Below the pieces are notes generated by a model. It was not told the origin of the DNA, did no database searches, and was given only the letters and a program-made list of their open reading frames with translations. A stretch of DNA of 64,000 nt, taken from assembly GCF_003473485.1 (NCBI RefSeq), contig NC_053043.1, positions 2,304,001-2,368,000 on the forward strand, given 5' to 3'. The position numbers and the translations under genes are program-made. This DNA is from Medicago truncatula. Taxonomy: Eukaryota > Streptophyta > Magnoliopsida > Fabales > Fabaceae. Numbering within the stretch: the first letter of the stretch is position 1; each line of letters starts with the position of its first letter. Of this stretch, positions 7,605 through 57,872 are shown piece after piece.

Positions 7605-7682
7605 TGCTCCTCATTCTCATTTTTTGTGTCACAGATATATCCATCCCCACAAAAGAGTAAAGTTGCACCAAACTTTTACACA

Positions 7683-9410: not shown

Positions 9411-9542
9411 ATACGTGGATTTGTCACATTGTGGTATTTTGTTTGATACAATTATCCCTTATGCGCATACATATATGCCTTTAATATCATAATTGTTCAT
9501 TCTTATATATCTTGTTTCTTGTATAAAATAAAACATGCATGG

Positions 9543-9677
9543 TCCCCGTGAGCTTAGCTCAGTTGGCAGGGACAATGTATTATTATATGTAGGGGTCGGG
9601 GTTCGAACCCCGGACACCCCACTTATTTACTTTAAAAGTGAATTTCTAACCACTAGGCTACCTGACCAAAAAAAAAA
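9543..9677 (+). mobile_element. tRNA-derived SINE
   Basis: Polymerase III box A (TAGCTCAGTTGG) and box B (GGTTCGAACCC) are both clear. The body ends CTACCTGACC plus poly-A and is flanked by a 12-bp target duplication (AAACATGCATGG at 9531-9542 and 9678-9689). Other P450 3' flanks show the uninterrupted site (for example near 36700). This is a retroposon, not a functional tRNA gene. Confidence 0.88.
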
Positions 9678-9689
9678 AAACATGCATGG

Positions 9690-10793
9690 ACTTCCTGTAA
9701 GTCGAGATACTTTCACCAAAAGTGATGCATAGAATAGAGTTATGGCCAAAGTGAAATGGTGCTTCATGATTTTCTTAATAACAAGATCCACAGATGTATA
9801 TAGCTTGTTTCTCGACCTGAGTTAATCATCATCAATTTCTGTATCAACAATCTTCTACTTCTATTTGAAATAGTAACATGTGTTCCTCTCAACAGGTCTA
9901 TTAATAAGTACCATAACACAACAATCAACACATTGGGAACTTGAACAATTTCACCTTTCATTTGATAGGTTAAATTGAGTTCGTACAAACAGTAGATTAT
10001 ATAGTTATAGCATGAAATTGATAAATAATAATTATAATAATTTACTCAAAATAATATTAGAAATAATGGTCACTTACATAAAGAAAAAAATAATAGATTA
10101 ATAGTCACTTAACAACAACAACAAAAAAACAAAAAAACTTAAAATATCTGTTTAGGACTTTTGAAACTTAAAAAACTTATTTGAGACTTTTAAAACTCAA
10201 AAGACCACTTTAAAAAAAACGAAAAACTTAAAGCAGATTGACCTTTAATATTTTCTTACAATTTAGAGTAATAATTTAATTACACCTACCTATCTAACTA
10301 GGACCAAATCTTTCCAAAAAAAGAAAAAACTAACTAGGACCACTCATTTGACAGGGATATTGCATATTATATGCAGGGGCCGGGGTTCAAACTCTGGACA
10401 CTCCACTTCTCCACAATTTAATTGTGTGAGTTCTAGCCATTAGGCTACTTAAAAAAAAAAAAAAAAAAAAGAACAGACGTAGTGTGGTACCACAAAAGTA
10501 ATCTACTTCGGTTCATATATTATGGATATAGTACAGACATAGTGTCTAACCAAAAAGGACGATATTTAATTTTGAAAAAACATTTTTTATTCTTATTAAG
10601 AATTCTGAAAGAAAAAAAAAATTATACATAATGATAAAATTAACATATTAACAATTATAAAATATTCAAATGTCTAGATGAAATAAATAACTTTGTACTA
10701 TTTAGAAAGAAATCTTTTAAATCAAAATGACATTATTTTTAGCTATGAAAGAAAACAATTTTTTTTAATGAAGTTAGTTAACCACCATTCAAC
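9690..10793 (+). repeat. Array intergenic unit, second copy
   Basis: Shares blocks with window positions 1-160, 40740-41110 and 17590-17960, interrupted by insertions. About 10140-10250 resembles one arm of the MITE at 20140-20555. No gene is seen. Confidence 0.6.
10355..10470 (+). mobile_element. 5'-truncated tRNA-derived SINE
   Basis: Same family as 9543-9677, beginning after box A. It keeps box B in mutated form (GGTTCAAACTC), the CTAGCCATTAGGCTACTT 3' region and a long poly-A. Related sequence at 40780-40850 lacks it, which marks the insertion site. Confidence 0.75.
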
Positions 10794-14201: not shown

Positions 14202-14278
14202 AATTTGTTTGTTTGTATGAGGAGAGACGTGTGTTAAGACCACATCCATATATAATCATATCATATGGTTTATATAAA
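14202..14278 (+). promoter_or_regulatory. Promoter of the CYP89A pseudogene
   Basis: Holds the shared block (TTTGTTTGTTTGTATGAGGA) followed by GAGACGTGT, which includes an ABRE/G-box-like ACGTG core. A TATA box TATATAAA lies at 14271-14278. Confidence 0.55.
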
Positions 14279-14393
14279 CCCTCATCATCCTCCCTCAAAA
14301 AAAAAAAAAAAACCCTCATCATCCTCATGTTTTGTGTCACACACATATTCTTCCCCACAAAAGAGTAAAGTTGCACCAAACATTTACGTAAAT

Positions 14394-15914
14394 ATAGAAA
14401 CATGGTTCATAGTCCTCGTTACTCTCTGCATCATCTTCCTTATCAGAGCCATGCTCTCCTTCTTCACAACCACTGTACCCCTCCCTCCCGGCCCTCTACA
14501 CATCCCCATCATCACAAACTTCCAATTGCTCCAAAAATCAATCTCCCAACTTGAACCTTTTCTCAAAACTCTCCATGCCAAACATGGTCCTATCATCATT
14601 GTCCATATCGGTTCTCAACCTTCCATTTTCATCAACGACCATGCTCTGGCTCACCATGTTCTCGTTCAAAACTCAGCCATAATCTCTGATCGCCCTACAG
14701 CTCTTCCTACTTCCAAAATGTTGTCCAGCAACCAACACAACATCAACACCGCTTTTTATGGCCCAACATGGCGTACCCTCCGTCGTAACCTTGCTTTCGA
14801 GATGCTTCATCCATCCAAACTCAAATCGTTCTCAGAAATTCAGAAGTGGGTCTTACGCACTCTCATCAACCGTCTCAAAACTGCATCAGAATCGGAACCA
14901 ACGGATTCTATTAAGGTTATGCCACACTTCAAATATGCTATGTTCTCTTTACTTGTTTTTATGTGTTTTGGTGAAAGAGTTAACGATGAGAAAATCAGTG
15001 ATATTGAGCGTGTACAAAGGAAGATTATGTTAAATTTTGGCAGATTCAATAAACTGAATTTCTGGCCGAAAGTTACAAGGATTTTGTCGCGTAACCAATG
15101 GGAGGAGTTTTTGAAGTTACTTAAGGATCAAGAGGATGTTCTGCTTCCGCTGATAAGAGCAAGGAAGCAAGTTAAGGAGAGTAAATTGAACAATGTTAAT
15201 ACTGTTGTTTCATATGCAGATACTCTTTTAGAGTTAGAGTAGCCTGAGGAGAAACGGAAGCTGAGTGAGAATGAAATGGTTAATCTTTGTTCAGAGTTTT
15301 TGAACGGTGGGACAGACACTACTTCCACTAGTTTGGAGTGGATTATGGCGAATGTGGTGAAGTACCCAGAAGTGAAGGGGAGGCTTGTGGAGGAGATTCG
15401 GGAGGTGATGGGTGGTGATGAAAATGGAGAGAAGGAGGAAGTGAAAGAGGAAGACTTGCAGAAACTTTGGTATTTGAAGTGTGTGGTTTTGGAAGGGTTG
15501 AGGCGTCATCCATCGGGGAAATTTCCGTTGCCACACGCGGTGAAAGAGGATGTGGTTTTGGACGGTTATTTGGTGCCTAAAAACGGGACGGTGAATTTCT
15601 TGCTGGCGGAGATGGCGTTGGATCGTCGTGTTTGGGAGGACCCATTGGAGTTTAAGCCAGAAAGGTTTTTGAAGGATGAGACTTTTGACATTACAGGAAG
15701 TAAAGAGATAAAGATGATGCCGTTTGGAGCTGGAAGAAGAATTTGTCCCGGACTTAATTTAGCTTTGCTCCATTTGGAATATTTTGTGGCTAATTTGGTT
15801 TGGAATTTCGATTGGAAGGTTCCAGAGGGCGGGCATGTTGATTTGACGGAAATACAAGAATTCACTATGGTGATGAAAAATCCAGTGCAAGTTCATATTT
15901 CTCCTAGGATATAG
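14394..15914 (+). pseudogene. CYP89A-type P450 pseudogene (copy 2)
   Basis: Two lesions break an otherwise intact P450. The METWF start is ATA (14394-14396) instead of ATG, and a TAG at 15240-15242 replaces the Leu codon in the LELEL(P)EEKRKL stretch. Downstream, the frame resumes without a shift to TAG 15912-15914 and keeps GGTDTT, EGLR, PERF and the normal haem loop [10 protein letters not shown]. An in-frame ATG at 14265 could add an N-terminal extension but overlaps the TATA region. At best the locus yields a fragment lacking I-helix and haem loop. The absence of frameshifts points to recent loss. Closest relatives by eye are copies 1 and 3. Confidence 0.92.
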
Positions 15915-25197: not shown

Positions 25198-25300
25198 TTT
25201 GTTTGTTTGTATGAGAAGGAGAGACGTGTAACACCACATCCATAAATTCATAATCATAACACCACATCCATAATCATATCATGATTCCTTTATATCAACC
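25198..25300 (+). promoter_or_regulatory. Promoter of CYP89A copy 3
   Basis: Shared block TTTGTTTGTATGAGAAGGAG followed by GAGACGTGTA, with an ACGTG core. The TATA position reads TTTATATCAA near 25290, a weakened form of the TATATAAA seen in copies 1 and 2. Confidence 0.55.
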
Positions 25301-25379
25301 CTCACCATTCTCATTTTTTGTGTCACACACATATCCATCGTCACAAAAGAGTAAAGTTGCACCAAACATTTACGTAAAT

Positions 25380-26894
25380 ATGGAAACATGGTTCATCGTC
25401 CTCGTTACGCTATGCATCATCTTCCTTATCAGAGCCATCCTCTCCTTCTTCACAACCACCGTACCCCTCCCTCCCGGCCCTCTACACATCCCCATCATCA
25501 CAAACTTCCAATTGCTCCAAAAATCAATCTCCCAACTTGAACCTTTTCTCAAAACTCTCCATGCCAAACATGGTCCTATCATCACTGTCCATATCGGTTC
25601 TCGACCTTCCATTTTCATCAACGACCATGCTCTGGCTCACCATGTTCTCGTTCAAAACTCAGCCATCTTCTCGGATCGCCCCGTAGCTCTTCCTACTTCC
25701 ATAATGTTGTCCAGCAACCAACACAACATCAGCTCCGCTTTTTATGGCCCAACATGGCGTACCCTCCGTCGTAACCTTGCTTCCGAGATGCTTCATCCAT
25801 CCAAAACCAAATCGTTCTCAGAAATTCGGAAGTGGGTCTTACACACTCTCATCAACCGTCTCAAAACTGCATCGGAATCTGAGGATTCTATTACGGTCGT
25901 TTCTCACTTTCGTTATGCTGTATTTTGTTTACTTGTTTTTATGTGTTTTGGTGAAAGAGTTAACGATGAGAAAATCAGTGATATTGAGCGTGTACAAAGG
26001 ACAATTCTGTTGAATATTAGCAGATTCAATATACTGAATTTTTGGCCGAAAGGTACAAGGATTTTGTTGCGTAACCGATGGGAGGAGTTTTTGAAGTTAC
26101 TTAAGGATCAAGAGGATGTTCTGCTTCCGCTGATAAGAGCAAGGAAGCAAGTTAAGGAGAGTAAATTGAACAATGATAATACAGTTGTTTCGTATGCAGA
26201 TACTCTTTTAGAGTTGGAGTTGCCCGAGGAGAAACGAAAGTTGAGTGAGAATGAAATGGTTAATCTTTGTTCGGAGTTTTTGAACGGTGGGACGGATACT
26301 ACTTCCACTGCTTTGCAGTGGATTATGGCGAATTTGGTGAAGTACCCGGAAGTGCAGGGGAGGCTTGTGGAGGAGATTCGTGAGGTGATGGTTAGTGATG
26401 ACAATGGAGAGAAGGAGGAAGTGAAAGAGGAAAACTTGCAGAAACTTCGATATTTGAAGTGCGTGGTTTTGGAAGGGTTGAGGCGTCATCCACCAGGGCA
26501 TTTTGTGTTGGCACACACGGTGAAAGAGGATGTGGTTTTGAACGGTTATTTGGTGCCTAAAAATGGGACGGTGAATTTCATGCTGTCGGAGATGGCGTGG
26601 GATCCTCGTGTTTGGGAGGATCCAATGGAGTTTAAGCCAGAAAGGTTTTTGAAGGATGAGACTTTTGATATTATAGGGAGTAAAGAGATAAAGATGATGC
26701 CGTTTGGAGCTGGAAGGAGAATTTGTCCCGGACTTAATTTAGCTTTGCTCCATTTGGAATATTTTGTGGCTAACTTGGTTTGGAATTTCAATTGGCAGCT
26801 TCCGGAGGGTGGCCATGTTGATTTGTCGGAAAAAGATGAATTCACTATGGTGATGAAAAATCCATTGCAAGTTCATATTTCTCCTAGGGTATAG
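25380..26894 (+). CDS. CYP89A-type cytochrome P450 (copy 3)
   Basis: Intronless, 504 codons, start at the conserved METWF methionine, stop TAG 26892-26894. Visible parts: membrane anchor (residues 4-24), proline hinge PPGP (31-34), C-helix W126-R130, oxygen-binding I-helix GGTDTT (303-308), ExxR (E365-R368), PERF region and haem loop [10 protein letters not shown] with Cys449. All are as expected for an active class II plant P450 working at the ER with a P450 reductase. CYP89A9 of Arabidopsis oxidises fluorescent chlorophyll catabolites; the substrate of this copy is unknown. The stretch around 25875-25935 is nearly identical to copy 5 rather than to its close relatives, suggesting gene conversion. 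Confidence 0.95.
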   Translation: METWFIVLVTLCIIFLIRAILSFFTTTVPLPPGPLHIPIITNFQLLQKSISQLEPFLKTLHAKHGPIITVHIGSRPSIFINDHALAHHVLVQNSAIFSDRPVALPTSIMLSSNQHNISSAFYGPTWRTLRRNLASEMLHPSKTKSFSEIRKWVLHTLINRLKTASESEDSITVVSHFRYAVFCLLVFMCFGERVNDEKISDIERVQRTILLNISRFNILNFWPKGTRILLRNRWEEFLKLLKDQEDVLLPLIRARKQVKESKLNNDNTVVSYADTLLELELPEEKRKLSENEMVNLCSEFLNGGTDTTSTALQWIMANLVKYPEVQGRLVEEIREVMVSDDNGEKEEVKEENLQKLRYLKCVVLEGLRRHPPGHFVLAHTVKEDVVLNGYLVPKNGTVNFMLSEMAWDPRVWEDPMEFKPERFLKDETFDIIGSKEIKMMPFGAGRRICPGLNLALLHLEYFVANLVWNFNWQLPEGGHVDLSEKDEFTMVMKNPLQVHISPRV

Positions 26895-26994: not shown

Positions 26995-27400
26995 ATGTGG
27001 ATTTCTCATATGGTCGGATTTTGTTTCATACAATGATCCCTTATGCATACATTCATATGCCTTACTTCTTATATATCTTGTTTCTTGTATAAAATAAAAC
27101 ATGTCTGTCATTCTTGTAAGTCAAGATACTTTCAATGTATAAAAAATATGATCTTGTTTTTGTAATATCAAAGTTGTTTTATTTTGGTCGACTGAAGAAA
27201 AAGAAGAAATGTATGTCCTAGCTAAAGTTGGTTTATTTTGTTAATCTGTTTGGTCTTGACGGTAGACTAGAAATGTATGTCCTAGCTAAAACAGGGAAAT
27301 TATGTTTAGGATCATAGTGTCTCATACAATATAGATTATGTTTCCTCCCTAAACATCTGTGGTCTTAAATTATAGGGTTGTAACTTGTAATTTTGAGTGT
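26995..27400 (+). pseudogene. Decayed SPNS exon 11 to intron 12 behind CYP89A copy 3
   Basis: Aligns with the intact SPNS gene at 44480-44950: the intron 11 start (TTTGTTTCATACAATGATCC), the CTTGTATAAAATAAAACATG block, the exon 12 acceptor region (ATTTTGGTCGACTGA versus ATTTTGGCAGACTGA) and the intron 12 block around CTGTGGTCTTA. Exon 12 itself is unreadable. Similar relics follow other P450 copies. Confidence 0.75.
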
Positions 27401-27533
27401 GCTGAAGTGATGCATAGAATAGAGTTATGGCCAGAATGAAATGGTACTTCATGATTTTCTTAATAACAAGATCCACAGTTTTAGAGCTAGTTTGTCAACC
27501 TGAGTTAATCATCATCAATTACTGTATCCTAAA

Positions 27534-27675
27534 TACTCCTACTATCTCCGTTTTTTAATACAAGCAAAATTGACTTTTTATATTCATTCATTTAATGATG
27601 TATGTGACCACATACATCATTAAATGAATGAATATAAAAAGTCAATTTTGCGTATATTTAAAGACAGAGGGAGTA
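27534..27675. mobile_element. Stowaway-type MITE
   Basis: A 142-bp near-perfect hairpin bounded by TA, with ends of CTCC(CT)..CCGT type typical of plant Stowaway/mariner MITEs. The arms include GCAAAATTGACTTTTTATAT and its complement, meeting at 27606-27610. Confidence 0.85.
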
Positions 27676-27679
27676 TTTT

Positions 27680-28510
27680 TGTAAATACTTTCCATCTATG
27701 GTCTTCAAAGAATGTCCTGAAAACAAGGTTAATATCTCTCTTTTATAAAAATAAAAAAAAGGAATAAAAATTAACTAATCAAGACAATTGGTGACCAATC
27801 ATGAGGGTGAATAAAAATATAGTGAATAGATGAATTGATCATCAAAATAATTATTGATTTTTGCAACAAATTTTTAGCATAAGTCTTTGTTATAAGGTAT
27901 GACACGGCACATTAATTGAACGTACTCCCTCCATATTAATCTCATATCAGTGACAAATATTCCTATGAAATTTAGGTCTCCTAGGGACTCTAATTTGTAG
28001 TCTTCGTATAAATTACATTTACCAACAAATTGTTTTTCAAATGGCATAAATTTCATAGACAAACTATTCTATATTGAGGTGACAATGACGTAGGACCAAC
28101 ATTCAATTATATCACGTCATTGCAACATCAGAGAGAGCATTCTTCAAATGAATGATTAACTTATTGAAATCATACTAGAAAACAGAGACAAAATCTCTGA
28201 TCTTGTAATTTGGTTCAATAGAAATTAGAATGAATGAAAAGACTACAAGGAAAATGTTCATATACAAGCAATAGAAGAAATCTGCTCTAACAGATTCAGT
28301 TAGAGATTACAGACTATCTAATTAATCAAACTCCAAGTGTGTAATAATTTTAGAACAACATTTGTGTGGTCACAATCCTAAATATAATTCATTTAAACAC
28401 TATTAGTGTGTGTTATCTCCTATGTAGGACATTTTTTCAATTCACACAACACTTGTTCTATCCAATGGGAGTTTGTGTTTATTCTTTCAACTTCCATTCA
28501 TTTAACTAGT
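27680..28510 (+). repeat. Array intergenic unit, third copy
   Basis: Diverged version of window positions about 590-1500 (the AATTGGTGACCAATCAT, ATATCACGTCA and ATACAAGCAATAGAAGAAAT blocks), ending in the stretch that precedes SPNS exon 2. No gene is seen; the small frames at 27874-28062 and 28406-28603 are not supported, apart from the exon 2 piece of fragment B. Confidence 0.6.
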
Positions 28511-28514
28511 GTTC

Positions 28515-29995
28515 CAACATCTAGCAATGGTGTTAATGGAAGTAAGGGAACGTGCACTGAAGGTGCTGCTGCTACTTGCACTTCTACTACAGGAATACAG
28601 TAAGATATATATAATGCAATTAACACCTTCCTTTTTCAGAACAAGAAGTCAAGAACTCATGGTTTAGAAAAAAGGTTTTACCTTTAAAAATCAATGCCAA
28701 ATGAAAAAGCACTCGTGCAAGATATCCTAAAATTATTGCAACAAGGGAATAAACAACATGGGGATCATCCTTGGTTACAACCTAGTTTTCGTCCAGGCTT
28801 TGCTCATGTGGTCCACACTTGGGAATATTTGAGTTCAAATCTTGGCTGAAGCAATCCTTGGTGTTGTGTAGAAGGTGTGAATTAGAAGTCTCGCTTTGTT
28901 TAGAAAAATGGAGGTTGGACACTTTATAAGTGAGAGGATCCATAAACCAATGCCTTAAGGTTTTAGGTTAAGATGTGGTGTCCAACTCACTTGTATGGTT
29001 ACTTTGGTCTCAATGTAGATGATCCCACAGACTTCCCTCGTAAGGCAGCGGTTGGTTAGACTTTACTTATTTTTCAACCAAACTACATTTATTAGGACCT
29101 CTTTTCCCTAGAGACCGGAGAGATAAGACATAAAATACCTAGTTTGTAACATGCAAGATAACTGTTGATGTTGTGTTCAATGCCTTAACATTGATAGTGT
29201 AACATGCAAAAGTTTTGAGATGGAGTTTTATCATCTGCTTTTATGGGTGGACTTCTTGTGGCTTCTCCAATATTTGCATTTCTAGCTCAGAGGTAATTAA
29301 TGTAACCATTCATGTTCCAATCAAAGTGAAACCTATTCTTAGTATTCGATATACTTTTATTATCTTAAATATACAGCACACATATATGCTTCATAAGATA
29401 AGTTGCAAATGTAATTATATATGATTTTTTCTTTATGCCTTCATTATTCTCTATAGTCTGTGTTAAGAGTCCCACATCGGTTAGGAGTTGGTCTGACAAT
29501 TTGTTTATAAGTGGGGGCAATCCTCACCTCACAAGCCGGTTTTGTGGGGTTGTGTTAGGCCCAACCACGATTTTTAATATGGTATCAGAGCCTCTTCACG
29601 ATTGTTTGGGCCACCTGTTATCAGGTTTCCGTTATCGGGCCACCCGTCATTTATGTTCACGCTTCAGATGTGTAATCCTGAGCGTGAGAGGGTGTGTTAA
29701 GAGTCCCACATCGGTTAGAAGTTGGCCTGACAATTTGTTTATAAGTGGGGGCAATCCTCACCTCACAAGCCGGTTTTGTGGGGTTGTGTTAGGCTCAACC
29801 ACGATTTCCAATAGTCTGGTTGGTGTTGGTGAGGCATCGTTTATAAGTTTAGCAGCCCCTTTCATTGATGACAACGCCCCAGCTCCTCAGGTTTGTTTAT
29901 TTCCCTTGTAGATTTCTTGATACAATCGTAGTTGAAAATATAATCAAACTTAGGCAGAGTGATAACATAATGAAATGAAATAATATACTATTTTT
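28515..29995 (+). pseudogene. SPNS transporter fragment B (exons 2, 3, 5)
   Basis: Remains of the spinster-like gene. They are a partial exon 2 at about 28523-28601 (SNGVNGSKGTCTEGAAATC), exon 3 without its 5' end at about 29216-29292 (GVLSSAFMGGLLVASPIF) and exon 5 at about 29814-29889 (LVGVGEASFISLAAPFIDD). Exons 1 and 4 are deleted, and nothing after exon 5 is found before the next P450. A TRIM retrotransposon sits at the exon 5 acceptor. The exon 5 sequence is well preserved, so decay is by deletion and insertion more than by point mutation. Confidence 0.82.
29461..29813 (+). mobile_element. Complete TRIM retrotransposon
   Basis: Two direct LTRs of 119 bp (29461-29579 and 29695-29813), beginning TGTTAAGAGTCCCACATCGG. 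Directly after the left LTR is TGGTATCAGAGC, the primer-binding site matching plant initiator-Met tRNA. A purine-rich tract (GAGCGTGAGAGGG) precedes the right LTR. The 5-bp duplication GTCTG flanks it (29456-29460 and 29814-29818). The internal part is only 115 bp with no gag or pol. The LTRs differ at a handful of positions. Confidence 0.92.
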
Positions 29996-30164
29996 ATGAG
30001 ATAAATTCAGGAGGATGATGATATGATACTTCGGTGCAAAATAGGAAAGACCTTGACATTCAAAAAATCCTTACAAAAATAGTTATATTTACATAATCAA
30101 TACAAGAATATTAATTGGATAACAATTTTTTTTATTCTTAAAGGTGACAACTAGGGTATTCATG

Positions 30165-30306
30165 GAAGAATGGTGGGTAATTTATCCCAACCAATACACA
30201 TTAGCCACATAAGCACATTTTTAAGTGGTATCCATGAACTATCTTGACCCCACCAACAAATTGCTCATTTTCATTGGTTGGTGGGTAAATTACCCACCAT
30301 TCTTCA
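30165..30306. mobile_element. Small MITE with perfect 20-bp inverted ends
   Basis: The end GAAGAATGGTGGGTAATTTA is exactly complementary to the other end; length 142 bp. No coding capacity. No clear target duplication was found. Confidence 0.8.
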
Positions 30307-30309
30307 AAG

Positions 30310-30895
30310 GTAATCTAGAAAAAACCATTCTTAAATATGTGATGTTGTGTTATTATAATTATGGAATGTATAAAATTACAAATAGATCCACTCGTGGGTC
30401 TTTTATCAAGGGAGCTTCTACGGTGCAGTCAGAAAATTGATTTTTTTTAAAAAGTTAATTTTGATCTTAATGTTTGATTTATTTTTAAATTGTTGATTAC
30501 TGATTAATAATCAATAGTAATTCATCTAGTAATGCTTGCAACATCTTGGATTTACAGGTACTATTTTATCGTTGTAATCTTTAACATGCAAACAAATTTG
30601 ATGATATTATGTGATAGTCTTAAGTGTTACACTTTGTGGGGTGTTACGCTTAAAATAAGGTAGGATAAAATTAGATTAAGTGTAGTCTTGTTAATTTGAT
30701 GATACTATGAGGACTGAACTTTTGATGCCAGTGTACAAACAATGGGGTGTTACTCAATACATTTATGATGTTATATTGTTAACTTCACGAGAAAAGTCAT
30801 TCACATAACTTCACCATAGAATTTTCCTTTTATATTAATCGTTTTGATCCTTAAATTCGCTTTGATTACACCAATTAATTTGGATAATTTTCCAT
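30310..30895. other. Intergenic, no gene seen
   Basis: AT-rich spacer between SPNS fragment B and CYP89A copy 4. No repeat structure, RNA gene or supported coding frame was recognised. Confidence 0.45.
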
Positions 30896-30930
30896 TAATT
30901 TGTTTGTTTGTAAGAGAGGGAGAGACATCT
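30896..30930 (+). promoter_or_regulatory. Conserved upstream block of CYP89A copy 4
   Basis: TTTGTTTGTTTGTAAGAGAG followed by GGAGAGACATCTT. As in copy 1, the ACGTG core seen in the other four copies is missing. No strong TATA box lies near; TTTATACACA at about 31176 is the best candidate. Confidence 0.45.
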
Positions 30931-31232
30931 TATATTTATCTCACCTTGTACAGATTTTTTTTTGCATTACACTTTAATTAATGGATCGAGGTAATTTAAC
31001 CATATAATTTTTTTTTCTTCATGTTTTTCATCTTTAGTCTTGCAATCAATTATAGTGCAACTTTGTTCCATTTAAGAGGGGGTAATACATGTCTCACCAC
31101 CTTTCGCGCACACACTATATCCATCCATACTTATTATTAAATCATATCCCCTAGTTCTCATCATCCATCCTTTGGTTTATACACACACTATCACGTAAAA
31201 AGAGTAAATCATTTGAATAAAACTTTTACGTG

Positions 31233-32747
31233 ATGGAAACATGGTTCATCGTCCTCATTACTCTTTGCATCATCTTCCTCGTCAAAGCCATTCTCTCCTC
31301 CTTCACAACCACCGTACCCCTCCCTCCCAGCCCACCACACATCCCCATCATCACAAGCATACAATGGCTCCGAAAATCATTTTCCCAACTTGAACCTTTT
31401 CTCAAAACTCTCCATGCCAAACATGGTCCTATCATCAATCTTAATATCGGCTCCAGACCTTCCATTTACATCTCCGACCGTGCTCTGGCCCACCACGCCC
31501 TCGTTCAAAATTCATCTCTCTTCTCCGATCGTCCTAAAGCACTTCCCAGTCACAAACTCATATCTAGCAACCAGCACAACATCAGCGCCGCTTTTTATGG
31601 CCCAACATGGTGTACCCTCCGTCGTAACCTCGCCTCTGAGATGCTTCATCCATCCAAGATCAAATCATTCTCTGAAATTCGGAAGTGGGTTCTACACACT
31701 CTCATCAACCGTCTCAAAATTGCATCAGAATCTACAGATTATGTTACAGTTATTCCACACTTTCATTATGCTATGTTCTGTTTACTTGTTTTTATGTGTT
31801 TTGGTGAAAGAGTTAACGATGAAAAAATTAATGATATTGAGCGTGTACAAAGGACACTTTTGTTGAAGGTTAGCAGATTCAATATACTGCATTTCTGGCC
31901 AAAAGTTGCATGGATTTTGTTGCGTAAACAATGGGAGGAATTGTTGATGTTGCGTAGAGATCAAGAAGATGTTTTGCTTCCGCTGATAAGAGGGAGGAAG
32001 CAAGTTAAGGAGACTAAATTGAACAATGCTAATACTGTTGTTTCCTACGTGGATACACTTTTGGAGTTGGAGTTGCCAATGGAAAAACGGAAGTTGACTG
32101 AGGATGAAATGGTTAGTCTTTGTTCGGAGTTTTTGAATGCTGGTACAGATACTACTTCCACCGCTTTGCATTGGATTATGGCGAATTTGGTGAAGTACCC
32201 GGACGTTCAAAGGAGGCTTGTGCAGGAGATTAGGGAGTTCATGGGTGGTGATGGTGTTGTAGAGAAGGAGGAAGTGAAAGAGGAAGACTTGCATAAACTT
32301 CGGTATTTGAAGTGTGTGGTTTTGGAAGGGTTGAGGCGTCATCCACCAGGGCATTTTGTGTTGCCTCATGCAGTGAGCGATGATGTGGTTTTGAATGGTT
32401 ATTTGGTGCCTAAAAATGGGACGGTGAATTTCATGGTGGCAGAGATGGGGTTGGATCCTCGTGTTTGGGAGGATCCAATGGAGTTTAAGCCAGAAAGGTT
32501 TTTGAAGGATGAGACTTTTGATATTACAGGGAGTAAAGAGATCAAGATGATGCCGTTTGGAGCTGGTAGGAGAATTTGTCCGGGATATAATTTAGCTTTA
32601 CTCCATTTGGAATATTTTGTGGCTAATTTGGTTTGGAATTTCGATTGGAAGGTTCCGGAGGGTGGCCATGTCGATTTGTCAGAAAAATTTGAATTCACCG
32701 TGGTGATGAAAAATCCATTGCAAGTTCATATTTCTCATAGAATATAG
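31233..32747 (+). CDS. CYP89A-type cytochrome P450 (copy 4)
   Basis: Intronless, 504 codons. The start is ATG 31233, directly after an in-frame GTG; stop TAG 32745-32747. I-helix AGTDTT, ExxR (EGLR), PERF and haem loop [10 protein letters not shown] with Cys449 are all intact. Two unusual residues stand out beside the siblings. The proline hinge reads PPSPP (Gly33 to Ser), and the C-helix has WCTLRR instead of WRTLRR, keeping the Trp and the distal Arg. The hinge glycine helps position the catalytic domain against the membrane anchor, so folding may be affected, but the frame is under no visible decay. It belongs with copies 5 and 6 by eye (ITSIQWLRKS stretch). Confidence 0.94.
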   Translation: METWFIVLITLCIIFLVKAILSSFTTTVPLPPSPPHIPIITSIQWLRKSFSQLEPFLKTLHAKHGPIINLNIGSRPSIYISDRALAHHALVQNSSLFSDRPKALPSHKLISSNQHNISAAFYGPTWCTLRRNLASEMLHPSKIKSFSEIRKWVLHTLINRLKIASESTDYVTVIPHFHYAMFCLLVFMCFGERVNDEKINDIERVQRTLLLKVSRFNILHFWPKVAWILLRKQWEELLMLRRDQEDVLLPLIRGRKQVKETKLNNANTVVSYVDTLLELELPMEKRKLTEDEMVSLCSEFLNAGTDTTSTALHWIMANLVKYPDVQRRLVQEIREFMGGDGVVEKEEVKEEDLHKLRYLKCVVLEGLRRHPPGHFVLPHAVSDDVVLNGYLVPKNGTVNFMVAEMGLDPRVWEDPMEFKPERFLKDETFDITGSKEIKMMPFGAGRRICPGYNLALLHLEYFVANLVWNFDWKVPEGGHVDLSEKFEFTVVMKNPLQVHISHRI

Positions 32748-32879
32748 ATTATGTGTGTTATGCGTATGTAGATAACAATAACATATTGCTTTAGTTCTTG
32801 GTGAAAGTTAAATGTATGTTGTTGTGTGAACCATCCTAGATTCTCTCTTGGCAATGTCATAACACAGCGGAATATTATA

Positions 32880-33302
32880 TGTAGATTTGTCACATTGGTA
32901 AGATTTTGCTTCATACAACGATCCATTATGCATACATATGCTTTTACTATCATAGTTGTTCATTTTTATATATCTTGTTTCTGGTATAGAATAAAACGTG
33001 CTCGCATAACATAAGTTAATGTAGTTGTTATAATATTAAAACTTGCTTTATTTTGGTAGACTGATACAGATTATGGGATATTTAATTATTATTTCTTCTA
33101 TCTTTTTCTTTTTTATGTGTGTGTGACCAAATAAAGAGTTCAATTCCTTGTGTTCATCCAAGAGTTTCTGGTGTCCTAACTGAGACATGAAAATTATTTT
33201 AGGTTCATATAGTATCTTATACCATATGGATTATGCATATTTTTTTCTCAGTAAACAGCTATGTTCTGTTAATTATAGGGCTGTAATTTATAATTTTGAG
33301 TG
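32880..33302 (+). pseudogene. Decayed SPNS exon 11 to intron 12 behind CYP89A copy 4
   Basis: The clearest such relic. GTCACATTGGTAAGATTTTG parallels the exon 11/intron 11 junction of the SPNS genes (ATCACATGGTGAGATTT). ATTTTGGTAGACTGATACAG at about 33050 parallels the exon 12 acceptor (ATTTTGGCAGACTGATTCAG). The intron 12 block with AAACAGCTATG and TATAGGGCTGTAATTT follows. Exon 12 breaks off after about 12 bases. Confidence 0.8.
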
Positions 33303-34774: not shown

Positions 34775-34933
34775 ATTTTTATTTTTTTTGAAGATGTATT
34801 ATATCCATCCATAACTATTAATCATATCCCCTTTATTCTTATTCTTATCATATTCATTCATCCTCTGTTTTATTGTCATTGATACACTGTCCGCGTAAAA
34901 AGAGTAAAGTAGTTGCATCAACACTTTTACGTA

Positions 34934-36460
34934 ATGGAAACATGGTTCATCGCACTTGTTTCTCTCTGCATCATCTTCCTCATCAGAGCCACCCTTTCAT
35001 CCATTTCCACCACCAAGAAAACCACCGCAACCCTCCCCCCTGGTCCACCACATATACCAATCATCACAAGCATCCAATGGCTTCGAAAATCATTCGCCCA
35101 GCTTGAACCTTTTCTCAGAACTCTTCATGCCAAACATGGTCCTATCATCAATCTTAATATCGGTTCTCGACCTTCCATTTTCATCGCCGACCGTGCTCTG
35201 GCCCACCACGCTCTCGTTCAAAACTCCTCCGTCTTCTCTGATCGTCCTAAAGCACTTCCCACTAACAAACTCATGTCCAGCAACCAGCACAATATCAGCT
35301 CCGCTTTTTATGGACCAACATGGCGTACTCTCCGTCGTAACCTCGCCTCCGAGATGCTTCATCCATCTAAGATCAAATCATTCTCTGAAATTCGGAAGTG
35401 GGTTCTGCAGACTCTCATCAACCGTCTCAAAACTGCATCGGAATCTGAGGATTCTGTTACGGTCGTTTCTCACTTTCGTTATGCTGTATTTTGTTTACTT
35501 GTTTTTATGTGTTTTGGTGAAAGAGTTAACGATGAGAAAATTAACGATATTGAGCGTGTACAAAGGACGATTCTGTTGAATTTTAGCAGATTTAATATAC
35601 TGAATTTCTGGCCGAAAGTTACAAGGATTTTGTTGCGTAAACGATGGGATGAGTTGGCGAAGTTGCTTAAAGATCAAGAAGATGTTCTGCTTCCGCTGAT
35701 AAGAGCGAGGAAGCATGTTAAGGAGAGTAGATTGAACAATATTAATACTGTTGTTTCGTATGTAGATACTCTTATGGAGTTGGAGTTGCCTCAGGAGAAA
35801 CGGAAATTGAGTGAGGATGAAATGATTAGTCTTTGTTCGGAGTTTTTGAACGGTGGCACGGATACTACTTCCACCGCTTTGCAATGGATTATGGCGAATT
35901 TGGTGAAGTACCCGGACGTTCAGGGGAAGCTTGTGGAGGAGATTACAGAGGTGATGGGTGGCGATGATGCTGGAGAGAAGGAGGAAGTGAAAGAGGAAGA
36001 CTTGCATAAACTTCGGTATTTGAAGTGCGTGGTTTTGGAAGGGTTGAGGCGTCATCCACCAGGGCATTTCGTGTTGCCTCACGCAGTGAGCGAGGATGTG
36101 GTTTTGAATGGTTATTTGGTGCCTAAAGATGGGACGGTGAATTTTATGGTTGCAGAGATGGGGTTGGACCCTCGTGTTTGGGAGGATCCAATGGAATTTA
36201 AGCCAGAAAGGTTTTTGAAGGATGAGACTTTTGACATTACAGGAAGTAAAGAGATAAAGATGATGCCATTTGGAGCTGGGAGGAGAATTTGTCCTGGATA
36301 TAATTTAGCTTTGCTTCATTTGGAATATTTTGTGGCTAATTTGGTTTGGAATTTCGATTGGAAGGTTCCCGAGGGTGGTCGCGTTGATTTGTCAGAGAAA
36401 CAGGAATTCACTATGGTCATGAAAAATCCATTGCAGGCTCATATTTCTCCAAGGATCTAG
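34934..36460 (+). CDS. CYP89A-type cytochrome P450 (copy 5)
   Basis: Intronless, 508 codons from the conserved METWF methionine to TAG 36458-36460. It is four residues longer than copies 1, 3 and 4 because of a Thr/Lys insertion before the hinge (TKKTTATLPPGPP). The membrane anchor, PPGPP, WRTLRR, GGTDTT, EGLR, PERF and [10 protein letters not shown] (Cys453) are all canonical. This is the cleanest group-two copy and a good candidate for an active enzyme. The 35435-35500 stretch nearly matches copy 3, although the genes differ more on both sides. Confidence 0.95.
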   Translation: METWFIALVSLCIIFLIRATLSSISTTKKTTATLPPGPPHIPIITSIQWLRKSFAQLEPFLRTLHAKHGPIINLNIGSRPSIFIADRALAHHALVQNSSVFSDRPKALPTNKLMSSNQHNISSAFYGPTWRTLRRNLASEMLHPSKIKSFSEIRKWVLQTLINRLKTASESEDSVTVVSHFRYAVFCLLVFMCFGERVNDEKINDIERVQRTILLNFSRFNILNFWPKVTRILLRKRWDELAKLLKDQEDVLLPLIRARKHVKESRLNNINTVVSYVDTLMELELPQEKRKLSEDEMISLCSEFLNGGTDTTSTALQWIMANLVKYPDVQGKLVEEITEVMGGDDAGEKEEVKEEDLHKLRYLKCVVLEGLRRHPPGHFVLPHAVSEDVVLNGYLVPKDGTVNFMVAEMGLDPRVWEDPMEFKPERFLKDETFDITGSKEIKMMPFGAGRRICPGYNLALLHLEYFVANLVWNFDWKVPEGGRVDLSEKQEFTMVMKNPLQAHISPRI

Positions 36461-36584: not shown

Positions 36585-36905
36585 AGATTTGTCCGATGGT
36601 GTGATTTTGTTTCATCAAATGATCACTTATGCATACATATTCCTTTACTATCATAGTTGTTCATTCTTACATATCTTGTTTCTTATATAAAATAAAACAT
36701 GCATGACCTTCTTGCAAGCCAAGATACATTCAATGTGAAAAAGTATGCTATTGTTTGTTTGTATATTCAAGTTGGTTTATTTTGTTAGACTAATGCAGAT
36801 TATGGTAGTAGACTAGGAATGTATGTCCTAGCTGAGACGGAAATTATGTTTAGGTTTATAATATCTCATACAATATAGATTGTGCATCCTCCCTAAACAT
36901 TTGTG
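36585..36905 (+). pseudogene. Decayed SPNS exon 11 to intron 12 behind CYP89A copy 5
   Basis: Same relic type as behind copies 3 and 4. ATTTTGTTAGACTAATGCAG at about 36780 parallels the exon 12 start of the broken SPNS copy (ATTTTGGTAGACCAATGCAG). Intron 12 sequence is interrupted at about 36905 and resumes near 37500 (CTGTGGTCTTAATTTCAGGG). Confidence 0.75.
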
Positions 36906-36995
36906 GTCATTTTTTATTTTATTATATAAGCAAATCTTTTTAGAAGCATACTAGCACAAGTTGTGCATAGCTGCTAAAAAAACTAGAGTTCTCAA

Positions 36996-37182: not shown

Positions 37183-39469
37183 TCGCATATGTTACAGAGT
37201 GAAAAAAACTACACCGTATGAAACGAGACATCATCACATATGCCTACACACCTTCACATTCTAAGCTTCCAGCCTCAACTTCTTCATAATTTCACCTTAC
37301 TAATTATGTTGGACTTGAAACTTCACCCTGCTACACCTCAACATATCTACTATATCAGACTGCCTTTCACTGCTAACAAAAACCTGCTGCAAAGTAAACT
37401 TAAAACATATTGCAGGCCTTAAATTCCAATATTTGAAACAAAACACCAGCCAATTAGACCTTTCATCATCCTTGGTTTTGGTTGCTTCTTGGAACTCCAA
37501 TCTGTGGTCTTAATTTCAGGGTTGTAATTTGTAATTTTGAGTGCAGAAATGATGCAAAGAATAGAGTGGACAAATCTGAGTAATTATGGCCATAGTAAAA
37601 TGGTGGTTGCTGATTTTTCTCAATAACAATATTCATAGATGTAGAGTTAGTTTGTCAACTTGAATTAATCATCATCAATTACCGCATCAACCATCTATTA
37701 GTTCTATTTGAAATAGTAATTTGTGTTTCTTCTACTCTCTACAAGTCCTACTTAAGTTCATTTTTTCTTAGTCATATCTTACAAGTCTACTAAAAAGAAC
37801 TATGACACTCAACACATTGAGAACTTGAACAATTTCACATTTGATATGATAGTTTCTATTTTTTTAATACTTACAAAGTATCCTAAAGAAGTAAAGATAC
37901 ATACTCATAGTATCTGACTGACTATTTGTCATTTCCATGTCTTTATTTGCATCAGATAGATATCGAGTTCATGCAAATTTGAAAACGTTTATTTTGCATG
38001 GACCTTATGTTTGTATATTGTTTAATGCAAATATTGTGGAGGCCAAAGTGAACTTCTTATGCCAGGCTTCATATGTATTAAACATGTCTTCATTGGTTCA
38101 ATTTCATGTTATTATCTATATTGCATACGAATTGCCAAATTTGTTTGACTAAGAATATCATAATCTATAGAGCTAAGTTTGGTTATTTACTCATAACTCC
38201 GGTTGTTTTTGTGTTGGTGAATTCCAAACGCCTTTCAGCAACAAAAATTAAACAAAGTTATTTAATTGTTGATTTGTGAAGAAAAACAATGACGTCAATT
38301 TGTCGTGTTTATCTAGTGCACGATTTGCTATTATAAGGTTATTTTTCTTTGGATTTTGCATTTTCATTTTAAAATCAAATGAAAATGAGACAGGCAGAAG
38401 ATTACAACACACACAAAACAGGTAATAAAACAGAAAACAAGGTTATGGATGGATGATGTGATGTGACGATTGATCCAAACAAAGTAACAACATAATTGGT
38501 TAGATTAGATGCATATCTTTTAGGCAAAATTACTAAGCTCCATTTCCCTCCTTATTGAGTATGTGCACCGCCGATCATATCTATATTAAGTTAAAGAAAT
38601 GTTAAATTTAGGGCTTAACTCAACCTTACAAAACTGGCTTGTAAGGTGAGGAGTGTCTTCTTTTTATAAACTTTGATCAAGCTTTCTATTTAACCAATGT
38701 GGGATTAATTCCACCCCCTCAAATACAAGCCAACATAAGGCAACTAGGGGCAAATTGCAATTAAGGTGTGATTACCAACACACCCCCTCATGTTCAAGGC
38801 GGGATTTCCAACAAGAAATTACCAAATTTGGAGATTTAGAATTTTGATTTTTAAGGGTTTAATCTTGAGCCAATACAATTTCGAGATTTAGAATTTTGAT
38901 AATAAGGTTTTTGTGGGTTTGAAGATGATGATGAAGAAGAAGATAGTAAGGCTTTTTCTAGGTGTTTTTTTGGGTTGAAGAAAGAGAGGTCGACGATGAA
39001 GATGTTTACCAATTTTCTTAGGCATTATTATTTTTAATTAAAAATATTAAAAAAAAAATAGGATTATCATATGAGGCATGACAACTTATTTGTGCATGTT
39101 TTGAAAAATAAAGAACTTGAATGGGAAAAAGAAAAGATAAAAGATCTAAGTGTTAGATGAATTGAATAAAAATAAGGGTGAATAAAAATACAATTTAAAT
39201 AGAATTAAACCCTTACGATTTAAGGGTAACCAATCATAAGGGTGAATAAAAATACAATATAAATAGAATGAACCTAATTATTTTTATTATATATGAGTCC
39301 GAAGCAAGTACTTCCATAACGTCTGTCGTCCGTTAGTGGCTATGACATGACACATTAAATGAATACGAGATTTCTATGTGTTAATCTCTCATCACTGACA
39401 AACTATTCTACATTGACCTGACAATGACTTAGGTAGGATCCATATTCAATTATATCACATCATTATAAC
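37183..39469. other. Intergenic unit with transposon debris; no gene
   Basis: Contains diverged array-unit sequence (37500-38060 matches window 1-340 in blocks). At about 38612-38705 a stretch (CTTACAAAACTGGCTTGTAA and, reversed, ATCCCACATTGGTTAAATAG) resembles an inverted, decayed TRIM-family LTR. The two LTRs of the TRIM at 29461 have the same order of motifs. The short open frames have no recognisable product. Confidence 0.45.
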
Positions 39470-41220: not shown

Positions 41221-44200
41221 ATGGAGCCATCCATAATGCCTTCCACCATTATTCCCACAACTTCATGGTTTACACCAAAAAGGTATTGTATAACTAACAT
41301 TTGTCCATTTTCTATTTACACCTCCTATATCCATCCATGCTGGGTTCATTCTTCTTTGCATTATTGGTATAGCATGTGGGGCTTTTAACCAATTTTGGAC
41401 ATGTAATCTATGTTTTTGTGAAATGTTGTTTTTTTGTCATGTTGTTTCCCTCTTCTGTTAGTGTTGCTTATAGATAATGTTGTTTTTTGTTTTGTAGGTT
41501 ACTTGCTATATTTTGTGTGATTAATTTGTTAAACTATTTGGATCAAGGAGCAATAGCTAGCAATGGTGTTAATGGAAGTACAGGAATACAGTAAGATATA
41601 ATGCAATTAACGCCTTCTTTTCTCAAACAAGAAATCAAGAACATAGGGTGTTGTCATGGTTTAGTAAAAAGGCTTTACCTTTAAAATTGATGAGAAATGA
41701 AAAAGCACTCATGCAAGATATCCTTAAATTATTGCAATAAGGGATAAACAACCTGGGGTTCATATTTGGTTACAGACCTATTTTTCGTCCAACTAAATGG
41801 CTCGGCTCAAGTGGTTCACATTCGGGAACATTTGAGTTCAAATCCTGGGTGGAGCAATCCTTGGTGGTGTTGTGTAGCATGTGTGAGTTAGAAGTTTCAA
41901 ATTGCTTAGAAAAGTGGAGGTTGAACACTTTATAAGTGAGAGGACCCATAAATTCAATGCCTTAAGATTTTGGGTTAAGATGTGGTGTCCAACTCACTTG
42001 TGTGGTTGCTCTGAACCCAATGTCGATGATCACCAGACTCCCCTCGTGATCCACCACTTGGCTAGACTTTACTTATCTTCCGTCCTGTTATAATGGCTAG
42101 ACTCCCCTCGTGACCCACCACTTGGCTAGACTTTACTTATCTGCTGTCGGGTTATAATGGGTGCTGATGTTGTTGTGTTCAATGCCCTAACATGTAAAAG
42201 TAAATTTTGAGCAATTTAATATTTTTTTACTATATTTTTCCTACTGTGTGCAGGGGGGATTTTAAATTGAACAATTTTGAAGATGGAGTTTTGTCATCTG
42301 CTTTTATGGTTGGACTTCTCGTGGCTTCTCCAATATTTGCCTCTCTAGCTCAGAGGTAATTAGAATAACCATTCATGTTCCAATCAATATGAAACCTATT
42401 CTTATTATTAGATATAGTTTTATTAGCTTAAATATACAGCAGATGAATGCTTCATAATATAAGTTGCAAATGAATTAAAATTCTTAAAGCTGAACGTGAT
42501 TTTAAACCACCACAGAGCAATCATATCGAATTTCAAGTTGTCCTTCTTGATGTGCAATTGAATGTGTATTTCAGGCAATCGTCTTGGCTTTGACTTTCAT
42601 AATTTTAAATGATCGAGACGTGTATCTAACGTATTTGCAGCAAAATTACCACAATAGTTGGATTATAATTTTAGTAGACCTTGTCCGTTACACTGAAGTT
42701 CTTATGTCTGATAGGCATAACTGTTTAAAAAGAAAAATTTCTGATCTTTTTCCTTGTATGTGCTACATGTTGTAATAGTTATCATATCATTAACTGACAT
42801 AAGAATCCTTTCTCACAATTCATATATTTTGCAGTGTAAATCCATTTAGACTTGTAGGAGTTGGATTGTCGGTGTGGACTCTTGCGACCTTCTTTTGCGG
42901 TTTTTCTTTCAATTTCTGGTCCATTTCTGTCGGTCGCATGTAAGTGTTACTGTGGTTTCTTATATTTTTAAGTTATATGATTTTTCCGTTTTGTGTAGTT
43001 AATCATTAGTACTAAACTTATGGAGAACTGGCTTTTTTTTTTTCCTTATGCCTTCATTATTCTGTATAGGCTGGTTGGTGTTGGCGAGGCTTCGTTTATA
43101 AGTTTAGCACCACCTTTCATTGATGACAACGCCCCGGCTTCTCTGGTATTAGTACTGTCTAACAATCAAATTGATATAGTATATTATTACTTCTAATCAC
43201 TTGATCATTATGAGATGTGCCGTGTTTGCTTCGTTTATTTCAACATTCCAATGTCATTTGTCAATCGTTGCCCGCTGTTCTTTCTTCTTTATGGTGGAAA
43301 TCTCTATCTCATACTAATAATGTGTGTAACAGAAAACGACATGGCTCGCAATGTTTTACATGTGTATACCATCCGGATATGCACTTGGCTATGTCTATGG
43401 TGGTTTGGTAAGTCTCTATCTGGTTTCCCTGCCACTATCAAATACTAAATACTAAATATCCATGTACTGGAAAAAGAATCAATTTGAGTATTTTACTTGT
43501 TTTGGAAAATAAATAAATTGACCTTTGTGTTTATTAACAGATTGGAAGTCATTTTGGTTGGCGTTATGCATTCTGGGTAGAGTCTATATTGATGCTTCCA
43601 TTTGCTATTTCAGGATTTTTAATGAAGCCTTTACACTTGAAAGGTACATATTTTTCTTGAATTGGTTTATCGTAAACCCCTATTATTGTTTTCCATCGGT
43701 AAACTAGTTCTGGATCCAGGTTTTGTTCCCGCTGATTTGGTAAAGGCACAAGTACCTAACACAGTTGCATCAGGAGTTCATGGTACACTAAGAATTAAGC
43801 ATTAGCCTGATTCTCATTTCTGGTTTAATATCTTGCAATTGGCTTAAATTTTGTATTAGCCTTAACAAAATTCACTTTGTTTGATTCAAAGTCACGAACG
43901 CTTCTAATGGCAGAGATGAGTCACTGTCTTTTAAGGAAGAATTCAGAGATAAAAGCTCAAATGACCAATCCAAGTTAGAACACAAACCTTCTGAAATAAC
44001 CATTTTTTCAATTATAGATTTCTTGTATCTTTTACTGTCTAGCATTTATAATTTAGCGTCTGAAGCATTCAAAATTATATCTGACTGATTATTATTTTAG
44101 GTCAAAATCTGCGACGAAAATGCTTGATCAATTCTCAAGATTTTTGATTGATATGAAAGCGCTCCTGCTTGATAATGTTTATCTTATCAATGTTCTAGGT

Positions 44201-46586
44201 ACTTGTCACTTCCACTGATCTACTGTGTGCATCAACTGTTTTTATAATATTTCTTTTATTTTCTCTAAATTTGCATCAGAAAGCTTCGGTTTTTATAGCT
44301 TACTTCCTGCGAACTTCAAATTGTAAAATCGCATATGTATTTTATTTTTAGAAATCATATTTTATCACATCTCTCTTTACTTAAACCTGTGACTTGAATA
44401 TATATATTTGTAGGTCACATAGGGTACAACTTTGTCTTAGGTGCTTACTCGTATTGGGGTCCCAAAGCTATCTACAATATTTATAACATGGTGAGGTTTT
44501 GCTTCAGCCAATGATCCCTTATGCATTAATATACCTTTACTATCTCATGGTTGTTCATTCTTATATATCTCGTTTCTTGTATAAAATAAAACATGTTTGG
44601 CATTCTGGTAAGCAAGATACTTTCAATATAAAAAAGTATGATGATGCTGTTGTCATATTAAACTTGGCTTATTTTGGCAGACTGATTCAGATTTGGTATT
44701 TGGAGGAATTACAATTGTATGTGGAATAGTGGGCACATTAGCTGGAGGAGTTGTTCTGGATTATATGACTAACACATTATCAAATGCATTTAAGGTTGGT
44801 ATTCAAATTAAAGACGGGTTCTAGTATTACTTTTATAACTTTTTAGATTCATAGTATCTTATGCCATAAGAATCATGCATCCGAAGTTCCACACTAAACA
44901 GCTGTGGTCTTAGTTATAGGGTTGTAATTTGTAAACGGTCTTCTGATCTGGCATACAGTTGAAAATTTAAAGATTTCTTCACTTGAGCATACTTAACACT
45001 AATCTTTTGCAGCTTCTCTCAGTGACAACATTTCTTGGGGCAGTATGTTGTTTTGGTGCCTTTTTATGCAGAAATGTGAACGGCTTTCTTGTTCTTTTCT
45101 CTATTGGTGAACTTCTTGTTTTTTCCACTCAGGTACTTTCCTTCTATGTCAGGAAGATCTCTATGTTCATTATATTGAAATACTGTTATTTTTACATGCT
45201 TAACGTCAATGAGTATTTTATCAGTTCTTGAATATTACTCTATAAGCTAATCATTTGATCATGAAAATTCCTAGTTAAATTCTTGCAAGAATATTTATGT
45301 GTTTTAAAGTAAAATAACTTCTACATTTGGAAAATTAGATGCAAACTTTCTCTCAAAGAACTTAATCTCATTGTACGGTTGTTTGTGTCTTCTTTTGAAT
45401 ATTTACGTTTGCTTGCGGTTTTCTTTTCAGGGTCCGGTGAATTATGTATGTCTTCATTGTGTTAAACCAAGTTTGAGGCCTTTATCCATCGCCATGTCTA
45501 CTGTTGCCATTCATCTCTTTGGAGATGTGCCTTCCTCACCACTTGTTGGAGTTCTCCAGGTCAGCCTTTTACGGAGGTTTTAGTAAACGCTTGTGTCTTT
45601 TTCACTTTAAAGTTGTTGATTTCGGAAAGTAGGGTGGAATTGTTGCTTTTTGACACATTGATGGCTGAAATTAGGCTAGACAAGTTTAAGAGAAAAATTA
45701 TTAAGAAGTACATAATGTAAAATCATATGCAGATAATTTACTTTTAATGAAAAGCACAAGACCTTTGTTTTAAAAAAATTTCGGAAGTATGTGCCTGATG
45801 GAAGTCGTAAGCCGAACATAGCAATTAATTCGATGGCTATCATAAATTTAAAGAGACATCAATAGCTAAAATTTAATTCCCAAACTTCTAAGTATCTGAT
45901 TCAAACAACGTGACAGCATGATTGTTTAAATGCCATTACTTGCGAAACAGAGGGAGGTTGAGATAGAGAAAATTACTGGTCACAGAAAATGTATTACGTA
46001 CGTGATATTACAAGATTCATGATTTTTGATACATTATGGTAATGCAGGATAGTATTAACAGCTGGAGAACAACTGTATTGATTCTAACAACTATATTGTT
46101 TCCGGCAGCTGGCATATGGTTTATCGGTATGTCATCTTGTTCATTTACTAGTAAAACGGAGAATTGGAGTTAGCATTTCTTTCGACATATCATTGTTGCA
46201 AGAGCAAAGATGTTATAAGAAACTGGAGTTGTTGGACATGAATGAAATTAATTGCTATAAAAATCAAATCCAACCAAAGTCATGACATTTTGTTATGATG
46301 GACGTTACTTTGCATGAAAATCATCGTATTTTCATAAATGCCTAATACACAGAAAAGTTGGAAATTATTTTTATTAACAGATGCTGTGATTTTTTTATAT
46401 ATACTAGCAGCTGCTGTGATTTATGTATATGTATATCTTGTAGGAATATTTGTCCATAGTATGGATAGATTTGAAGATGTCAGTGAGCATCAAGTGTCAA
46501 AGGTCGAGAGGTCATGCACTATACCGTTGCTTCAAGAGAAGACCGGAGAAACATCATTATCTCCTGCACAATCTGAAGAATATTGA
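41221..46586 (+). CDS. Spinster-like (SPNS) MFS transporter, 16 exons, open frame
   Basis: Joining 16 exons with GT-AG borders gives one frame of 506 codons: 41221-41282, 41498-41590, 42254-42355, 42835-42939, 43070-43145, 43333-43407, 43541-43643, 43720-43782, 43892-43973, 44101-44198, 44414-44490, 44681-44794, 45013-45132, 45431-45559, 46048-46126, 46444-46586. Conserved blocks match plant spinster homologues, probable sphingolipid or lysolipid carriers of the major facilitator superfamily: FEDGVLSSAFMVGLLVASPI, VGVGEASFISL, YNFVLGAYSYWGPKA, LHCVKPSLRP and FGDVPSSPLVGVLQD. About twelve hydrophobic segments are spread through the exons. Two oddities appear. The TM1 motif reads LDQGAIAS instead of DRGAIAS (codon 41544-41546). 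Exon 2 also lacks about 45 bp that encode a Cys-containing loop in the other copies. Transport activity is therefore uncertain. The start ATG is conserved in the neighbouring copy. Confidence 0.88.
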
Positions 46587-57870: not shown

Positions 57871-57872
57871 GC

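Follow-up and report, generated by a model that had tools for sequence, protein, structure and literature searches.

SPNS transporter sequence behind the CYP89A genes of a Medicago truncatula array, a probable seam of tandem duplication

An array of P450 genes and SPNS transporter genes lies in, and just to the left of, a stretch of 64,000 nucleotides of the Medicago truncatula genome (contig C2:2304001–2368000, hereafter the window), and behind five of its seven P450 copies (c0, c1, c3, c4 and c5) lies a piece of SPNS gene, starting 107–222 bp after the coding region. The piece holds the last ~12 bp of SPNS exon 11, intron 11, the exon-12 acceptor and part of intron 12, and the matching region of the intact gene SPNS-A is 44479–44934. 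The explanation that we favour, with a probability of roughly 0.6, is that this piece is a tandem-duplication seam between SPNS-CYP89A units, and that an AATAAA from SPNS intron 11 is now probably used by the P450s. The analysis took in a further 40 kb on the upstream side of the window and 30 kb on the downstream side, in a genome of 430 Mb in 42 contigs; negative coordinates lie to the left of the window start, and c1–c6 are copies 1–6 of an original prediction for this DNA.

The SPNS piece behind the P450 copies

All seven P450 copies in the extended region lie on the + strand, c0 to the left of the window and c1–c6 inside it. Their frames are single-exon, the P450 Pfam domain was present in all five copies scanned, and the subfamily name CYP89A is the label given in the original prediction.

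−1936..−419, + strand: c0, the seventh P450 (L002 8064–9581; C2:2302064–2303581), found by profile search and absent from the original prediction
7587..9197, + strand: c1, open frame, P450 Pfam domain (1.2e-91)
14265..15914, + strand: c2, one in-frame TAG, SPNS piece lost
25281..26894, + strand: c3, open frame, P450 Pfam domain
31230..32747, + strand: c4, open frame, P450 Pfam domain
34913..36460, + strand: c5, open frame, P450 Pfam domain
55233..56765, + strand: c6, last of the array, without the exon 11–intron 12 piece, P450 Pfam domain

Only c2 has a stop in frame, and the ratio of nonsynonymous to synonymous divergence (dN/dS) between copies, 0.16–0.42, points to coding constraint overall. 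Among the full-length SPNS copies here, SPNS-A alone has an intact frame.

41221..46586, + strand: SPNS-A, 16 exons whose GT-AG splicing gives an uninterrupted frame of 506 amino acids
48627..54396, + strand: SPNS-B, full-length, with a stop codon in exon 6 (50308–50382) and an insertion in intron 11

The insertion in SPNS-B is ~630 bp long (51586–52216) and lies in the very intron that is found behind the P450s. Directly before c2, at 14134–14202, there is a reversed 70-bp match of 70% to SPNS-B intron 5 (E 7e-4).

The pieces themselves are as follows.

−306..−24: SPNS piece behind c0 (nhmmer match −305..−99, 1.4e-15)
9419..9717, + strand: SPNS piece behind c1, ending early in intron 11 (nhmmer 9419–9552, E 1.6e-10)
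27001..27390, + strand: SPNS piece behind c3, exon 11 end to intron 12 (nhmmer 8.5e-25)
32885..33293, + strand: SPNS piece behind c4 (nhmmer 32887–33292, 1.7e-18)
36587..36910, + strand: SPNS piece behind c5, first part (nhmmer 36579–36824, 1.3e-26)
37502..37534, + strand: SPNS piece behind c5, last part, 33 bp (SPNS-A 44902–44934)

By blastn, the left edge falls at SPNS-A 44479 in all five pieces and the right edge at 44934 in four, c1 being without that part. Exon 12 is mostly absent; its acceptor is passed in all but c1, and in the c0 piece it is no longer recognisable. Chance similarity between AT-rich sequences is ruled out as the source of the match by 100 first-order Markov shuffles per flank, all of which the real score exceeded for c0, c1, c3, c4, c5 and c6, and by the flanks of six P450s from elsewhere in the genome, whose scores lay within those of their shuffles (between 14 and 85 of 100 shuffles reaching the real score). 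The alignment with SPNS that had been predicted downstream of copies 3, 4 and 5, and in shortened form of copy 1, thus stands on nhmmer, blastn and shuffles alike. When the c5 flank was compared with the whole genome, all nine of the matches listed fell inside this array. Weak matches of the c3 and c5 pieces to the P450 locus L010 on C5 (E 9e-4 and 0.002) were rejected as SPNS sequence in a P450 3′ flank: they lie outside the L010 3′ flank, and the c5 match is within shuffles (37/100).

The c1 piece is split at about 9543–9689 by a short tRNA-like repeat with a direct repeat of at most 13 bp on either side, beyond which the SPNS match resumes for a few tens of bases; we take this repeat to be a SINE (short interspersed nuclear element), and a 78% copy of it lies at 10343–10467. 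The c5 piece is interrupted by an insertion of ~590 bp (36909–37502) with TGTGGTC on both sides. Behind c2 the piece is lost, the sequence from 15962, 51 bp past the last sense codon, matching 153–2016 at 97%; this duplicate (153–2016 and 15962–17824), together with the P450 tree, links c0 to c2.

Direction of transfer and a single capture

Judged from the comparison of paralogues, which rests on short matches, and from the exon–intron context of the piece, the captured sequence originated in SPNS. There are two further SPNS loci outside the array, one on C4 and one on C5, and no P450 was seen near the C4 locus among the matches listed. The C4 gene shares the start of intron 11, for which SPNS-A, c5 and c0 each beat 60/60 shuffles over 26–36 bp, and a profile that includes exon 12 matches it at 2.5e-19, while identity to C4 over the whole intron-11 stretch is only 0.50–0.62. 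The pieces are closer to SPNS-A and SPNS-B (0.73–0.79) than to the C4 gene (0.50–0.60), and the source of the foreign piece is a gene of the same array (SPNS-A, SPNS-B), as in a chimera formed at a duplication seam.

The P450 side gives a corresponding picture. The P450 on C8 is the nearest to c5 of the six loci fetched from elsewhere in the genome (75% amino-acid identity), and its 3′ flank has no SPNS match by comparison with shuffles. It shares with c4 the 3′ untranslated region (UTR), bases 16–108 of 137, with a score of 67 that none of 200 shuffles reached. From this match, the lack of SPNS sequence behind the C8 gene and the exon–intron context of the piece, we place the joint in c4 at most ~30 bp past the end of the ancestral P450 UTR. 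We also considered, and rejected, that the stretch of P450 UTR preceding the joint came from SPNS: when this block of 60–70 bp was aligned with SPNS exons 6–11, seven of eight alignments fell within shuffles (66–198 of 200) and one, c4 against SPNS-A, was marginal (5/200). The view that the P450 3′ flanks are SPNS-derived is therefore upheld by the shared edges, the shuffles and the paralogues on C4 and C8.

In a tree of the pieces rooted on the C4 gene, all five stand together against SPNS-A, SPNS-B and C4 (support 91), branching in the order c4, c5 (54), c1 (65), (c0, c3) (74). The P450 tree, rooted on C8, has the order c6, (c4, c5) (89), c1, c3, (c0, c2). Because the pieces form one group whose branching nearly repeats that of the P450 tree, these data support a single capture followed by co-amplification with the P450, for which one event would suffice. 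The shared edges and nearly matching trees likewise agree with the earlier proposal that a chimeric unit was amplified after its formation. Synonymous divergence (dS) of c4, c5 or c6 from the c0–c3 group is 0.31–0.44, and that of c6 from c4 and c5 is 0.43 and 0.46. If general plant rates apply, as we assume, these values correspond to some tens of millions of years, an age at which related genera should show the event too.

Origin of the joint and the polyadenylation signal

Beyond the pieces the array continues with a stretch that we call X, and with remnants of SPNS genes, several decayed 5′ parts among them.

37535..38060, + strand: stretch X upstream of SPNS-A, with genome-search matches listed only within this array
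27391..27534, + strand: stretch X behind the c3 piece, directly after it
27745..29994, + strand: decayed SPNS 5′ part, upstream region plus remnants of exons 2, 3 and 5
57852..57934, + strand: SPNS intron-12 end and exon-13 start behind c6 (nhmmer 6.3e-9)

X follows the piece in all five cases, and SPNS upstream sequence follows X in four of the five. This order suggests that the piece sits where one unit ends with its P450 and another starts, as the seam of a tandem duplication would, and with the left edge and X common to five of five and the right edge to four of five, successive units have a common junction. If the piece is a seam between units, its absence behind c6, the terminal copy, is expected. 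Neither an origin of X from old P450 downstream DNA nor one from the DNA upstream of the C4 SPNS gave any signal (lowest 32/200 shuffles). The ~160 bp after the X of c3 (27535–27692) match a repeat that P450 loci on C8 and C1 (L012, L008) carry in both orientations.

We infer the following course of events. A CYP89A gene would have stood directly downstream of an SPNS gene in the same orientation, and the first tandem duplication of this pair would have joined the P450 3′ flank, ~100–140 bp past the stop, to SPNS exon 11–intron 12, which in turn would have been joined to X, the region that precedes the next SPNS gene. The piece could be a true duplication breakpoint, with later rearrangement, or templated filler copied in during break repair. 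The seam between units would then have been carried along in later copies. In the process the old P450 polyadenylation region would have been displaced, and an AATAAA from SPNS intron 11 would have come to lie at a similar distance. Templated filler DNA at repair junctions is a stretch copied from nearby DNA, and the piece is likewise a copy of nearby DNA at a junction; it differs in that 456 bp from a neighbouring gene would be a long insert, and in that the junction here is old and its edges are blurred.

The positions of the polyadenylation signals are consistent with such a displacement. In all five copies the first AATAAA within 600 bp of the stop lies in the SPNS piece, at 199–243 bp (330 bp in c1, or 239 without an extra 91 bp), and the C8 P450 has its own AATAAA at 231 bp; the likeness of these distances fits a replaced poly(A) region. 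The P450s probably use the AATAAA from SPNS intron 11 as their poly(A) signal, and the prediction that former SPNS intron serves as their 3′ UTR and terminator is plausible. We saw no excess conservation around the AATAAA, which is not among the 4 invariant windows of 83 gap-free windows of six columns. Of the copies without the piece, c2 has a broken frame, a single case that proves nothing, and c6 keeps an open one. Tentatively, and at somewhat less than even odds, we suggest that the founding duplication may have rewired 3′-end formation in all copies that inherited the seam, by means of a poly(A) region from a transporter intron, with loss of the piece in c2 accompanying its broken frame.

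Several observations weigh against the seam interpretation. Behind c4, X occurs without an SPNS upstream region after it. The 3′ flank of c6 resembles the other P450s only to ~20 bp past the stop and holds dispersed repeats, so that the absence of the piece there may be secondary; this flank matches neither the C8 flank nor the UTRs of the other copies, and as a view of the ancestral flank it is uninformative. The exon-13 scrap behind c6 hints that more SPNS sequence once lay there, for which a pure filler model has no need. For the copies common to both trees, the branching differs at one point only: c4 and c5 are sisters in the P450 tree (support 89) but separate in the piece tree (54). SPNS-A and SPNS-B form a sister pair in the piece tree without C4 (100) but not in the C4-rooted one. 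This change, together with the length of the C4 branch, makes the root of the piece tree soft. Neither the c3 nor the c4 piece shows a significant match to the C4 intron (5/60 and 16/60 shuffles), nor do the c3 and c5 UTRs to C8 (103/200 and 10/200). Finally, conservation is highest not around the AATAAA but in the P450 UTR, which holds the most conserved window of 40 columns (8 of them variable, P 0.015).

Some of the evidence would also suit an insertion that had nothing to do with duplication, in which an SPNS fragment of ~456 bp entered behind one CYP89A gene, by break repair or with a transposon, and unequal crossing-over amplified it later. Edges common to five of five pieces on the left and four of five on the right, the shortness of the piece and the grouping of the pieces in the tree are all what it would give. 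We nevertheless consider it unlikely, as it would then be mere chance that the piece sits between units and is missing from the terminal copy. Neither terminal repeats nor a target-site duplication were noticed around the piece as a whole, although no systematic search for them was made. A deletion in an SPNS-CYP-SPNS array, taking away the downstream SPNS as far as exon 11 and fusing its remainder to the P450, with a second event joining intron 12 to X, appears improbable. The exon-13 scrap behind c6 would fit a longer SPNS tail that once lay behind the P450s, but two independent breaks would be needed, both before the five copies arose, and no copy with exons 13–16 behind the piece was found in a profile search of 134 kb.

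The original prediction explained the flanks differently, by an intronless CYP89A copy landing inside an SPNS gene near exon 11, with amplification of the resulting chimera. In its favour are the exon 11–intron 12 piece downstream and the SPNS 5′ exons upstream of copies 3 and 4, which are present as predicted: exon 1 at 18070 and exon 2 at 18352 before c3, and before c4 exon 2 at 28520 (a weak protein match, with a DNA match of 94% over 97 bp), exon 3 at 29204 with a stop, and exon 5 at 29816. The SPNS exon 13 start behind the last copy, c6, which had also been noted and which we recovered at 57852–57934, points the same way, as do weak, unordered SPNS-like scores before c2, c3 and c5. An insertion into SPNS should, however, have left the left half of exon 11 upstream of the P450 copies, and this half was found before none of the seven. 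Searches by protein over 94 kb and, in agreement, by DNA profile (nhmmer) over 134 kb recovered exon 11 from SPNS-A and SPNS-B and from nowhere else, and the proposed search for SPNS exon 11 5′ sequence upstream of a CYP89A promoter therefore found none within this array. When the upstream stretches of the seven copies were aligned with exons 6–11 of SPNS-A and SPNS-B, 12 of 14 alignments fell within shuffles, the control of SPNS-A against SPNS-B scoring 459. The two marginal scores, for c3 (0/100 shuffles, by one point) and c5 (1/100), come from short, intronic matches, none of them near exon 11, and a weak exon-10-like protein match before c2 (13885–13968, E 0.034) is without DNA backing. 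Moreover, the upstream SPNS remains have an SPNS upstream region of their own, and c6 comes after the last exon of SPNS-B, starting ~840 bp past it. We therefore regard a landing inside SPNS as very improbable. Nor do intronless copies point to retroposition, since passages of a survey of Medicago P450s describe CYP89 genes as mostly intronless, with CYP89A29 and CYP89A31 as exceptions (PMC8467197).

Other repeats and remnants accompany the array. Between c6 and the exon-13 scrap, 57433–57817 is a dispersed repeat, relatives of which occur on each of the eight main contigs. A tandem repeat array with units of ~80 bp lies at 3302–4320, between the first SPNS upstream remnant and c1, and a short tandem repeat array at 62873–63353, close to the right end of the window. 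Further out, 14–16 kb to the left of the window, L001 3578–5657 has weak matches to the SPNS upstream region and to the CYP89A promoter, and is perhaps a decayed earlier unit.

Comparison with known systems

Passages of work on Drosophila yakuba describe chimeric gene structures that arise by tandem duplication (PMC5460883). The Medicago array resembles these in that a duplication boundary would make a chimeric structure and shuffle regulatory elements. It differs from what those passages describe in that the coding gene is whole and intronless and the borrowed part, mostly intronic, lies in its 3′ flank; in addition, the junction is an old one common to several copies of a plant P450 array. 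For Medicago truncatula, 61 tandem P450 gene pairs and mostly intronless CYP89 genes are reported in passages of PMC8467197; those passages do not mention SPNS sequence behind P450s, and the word ‘spinster’ is absent from the main text of that paper. Among the literature titles listed we found none on a fusion of SPNS sequence to a P450 3′ flank.

Chimeras formed by tandem duplication are thus already known, and the interest of this array lies in the possible intron-derived terminator common to several P450 copies. It would provide a datable, multi-copy case in which a gene had its 3′ end exchanged for the joint of a duplication and passed that joint on as it multiplied, and in related legumes the SPNS piece may be usable as a molecular tag by which to recognise the founding event.

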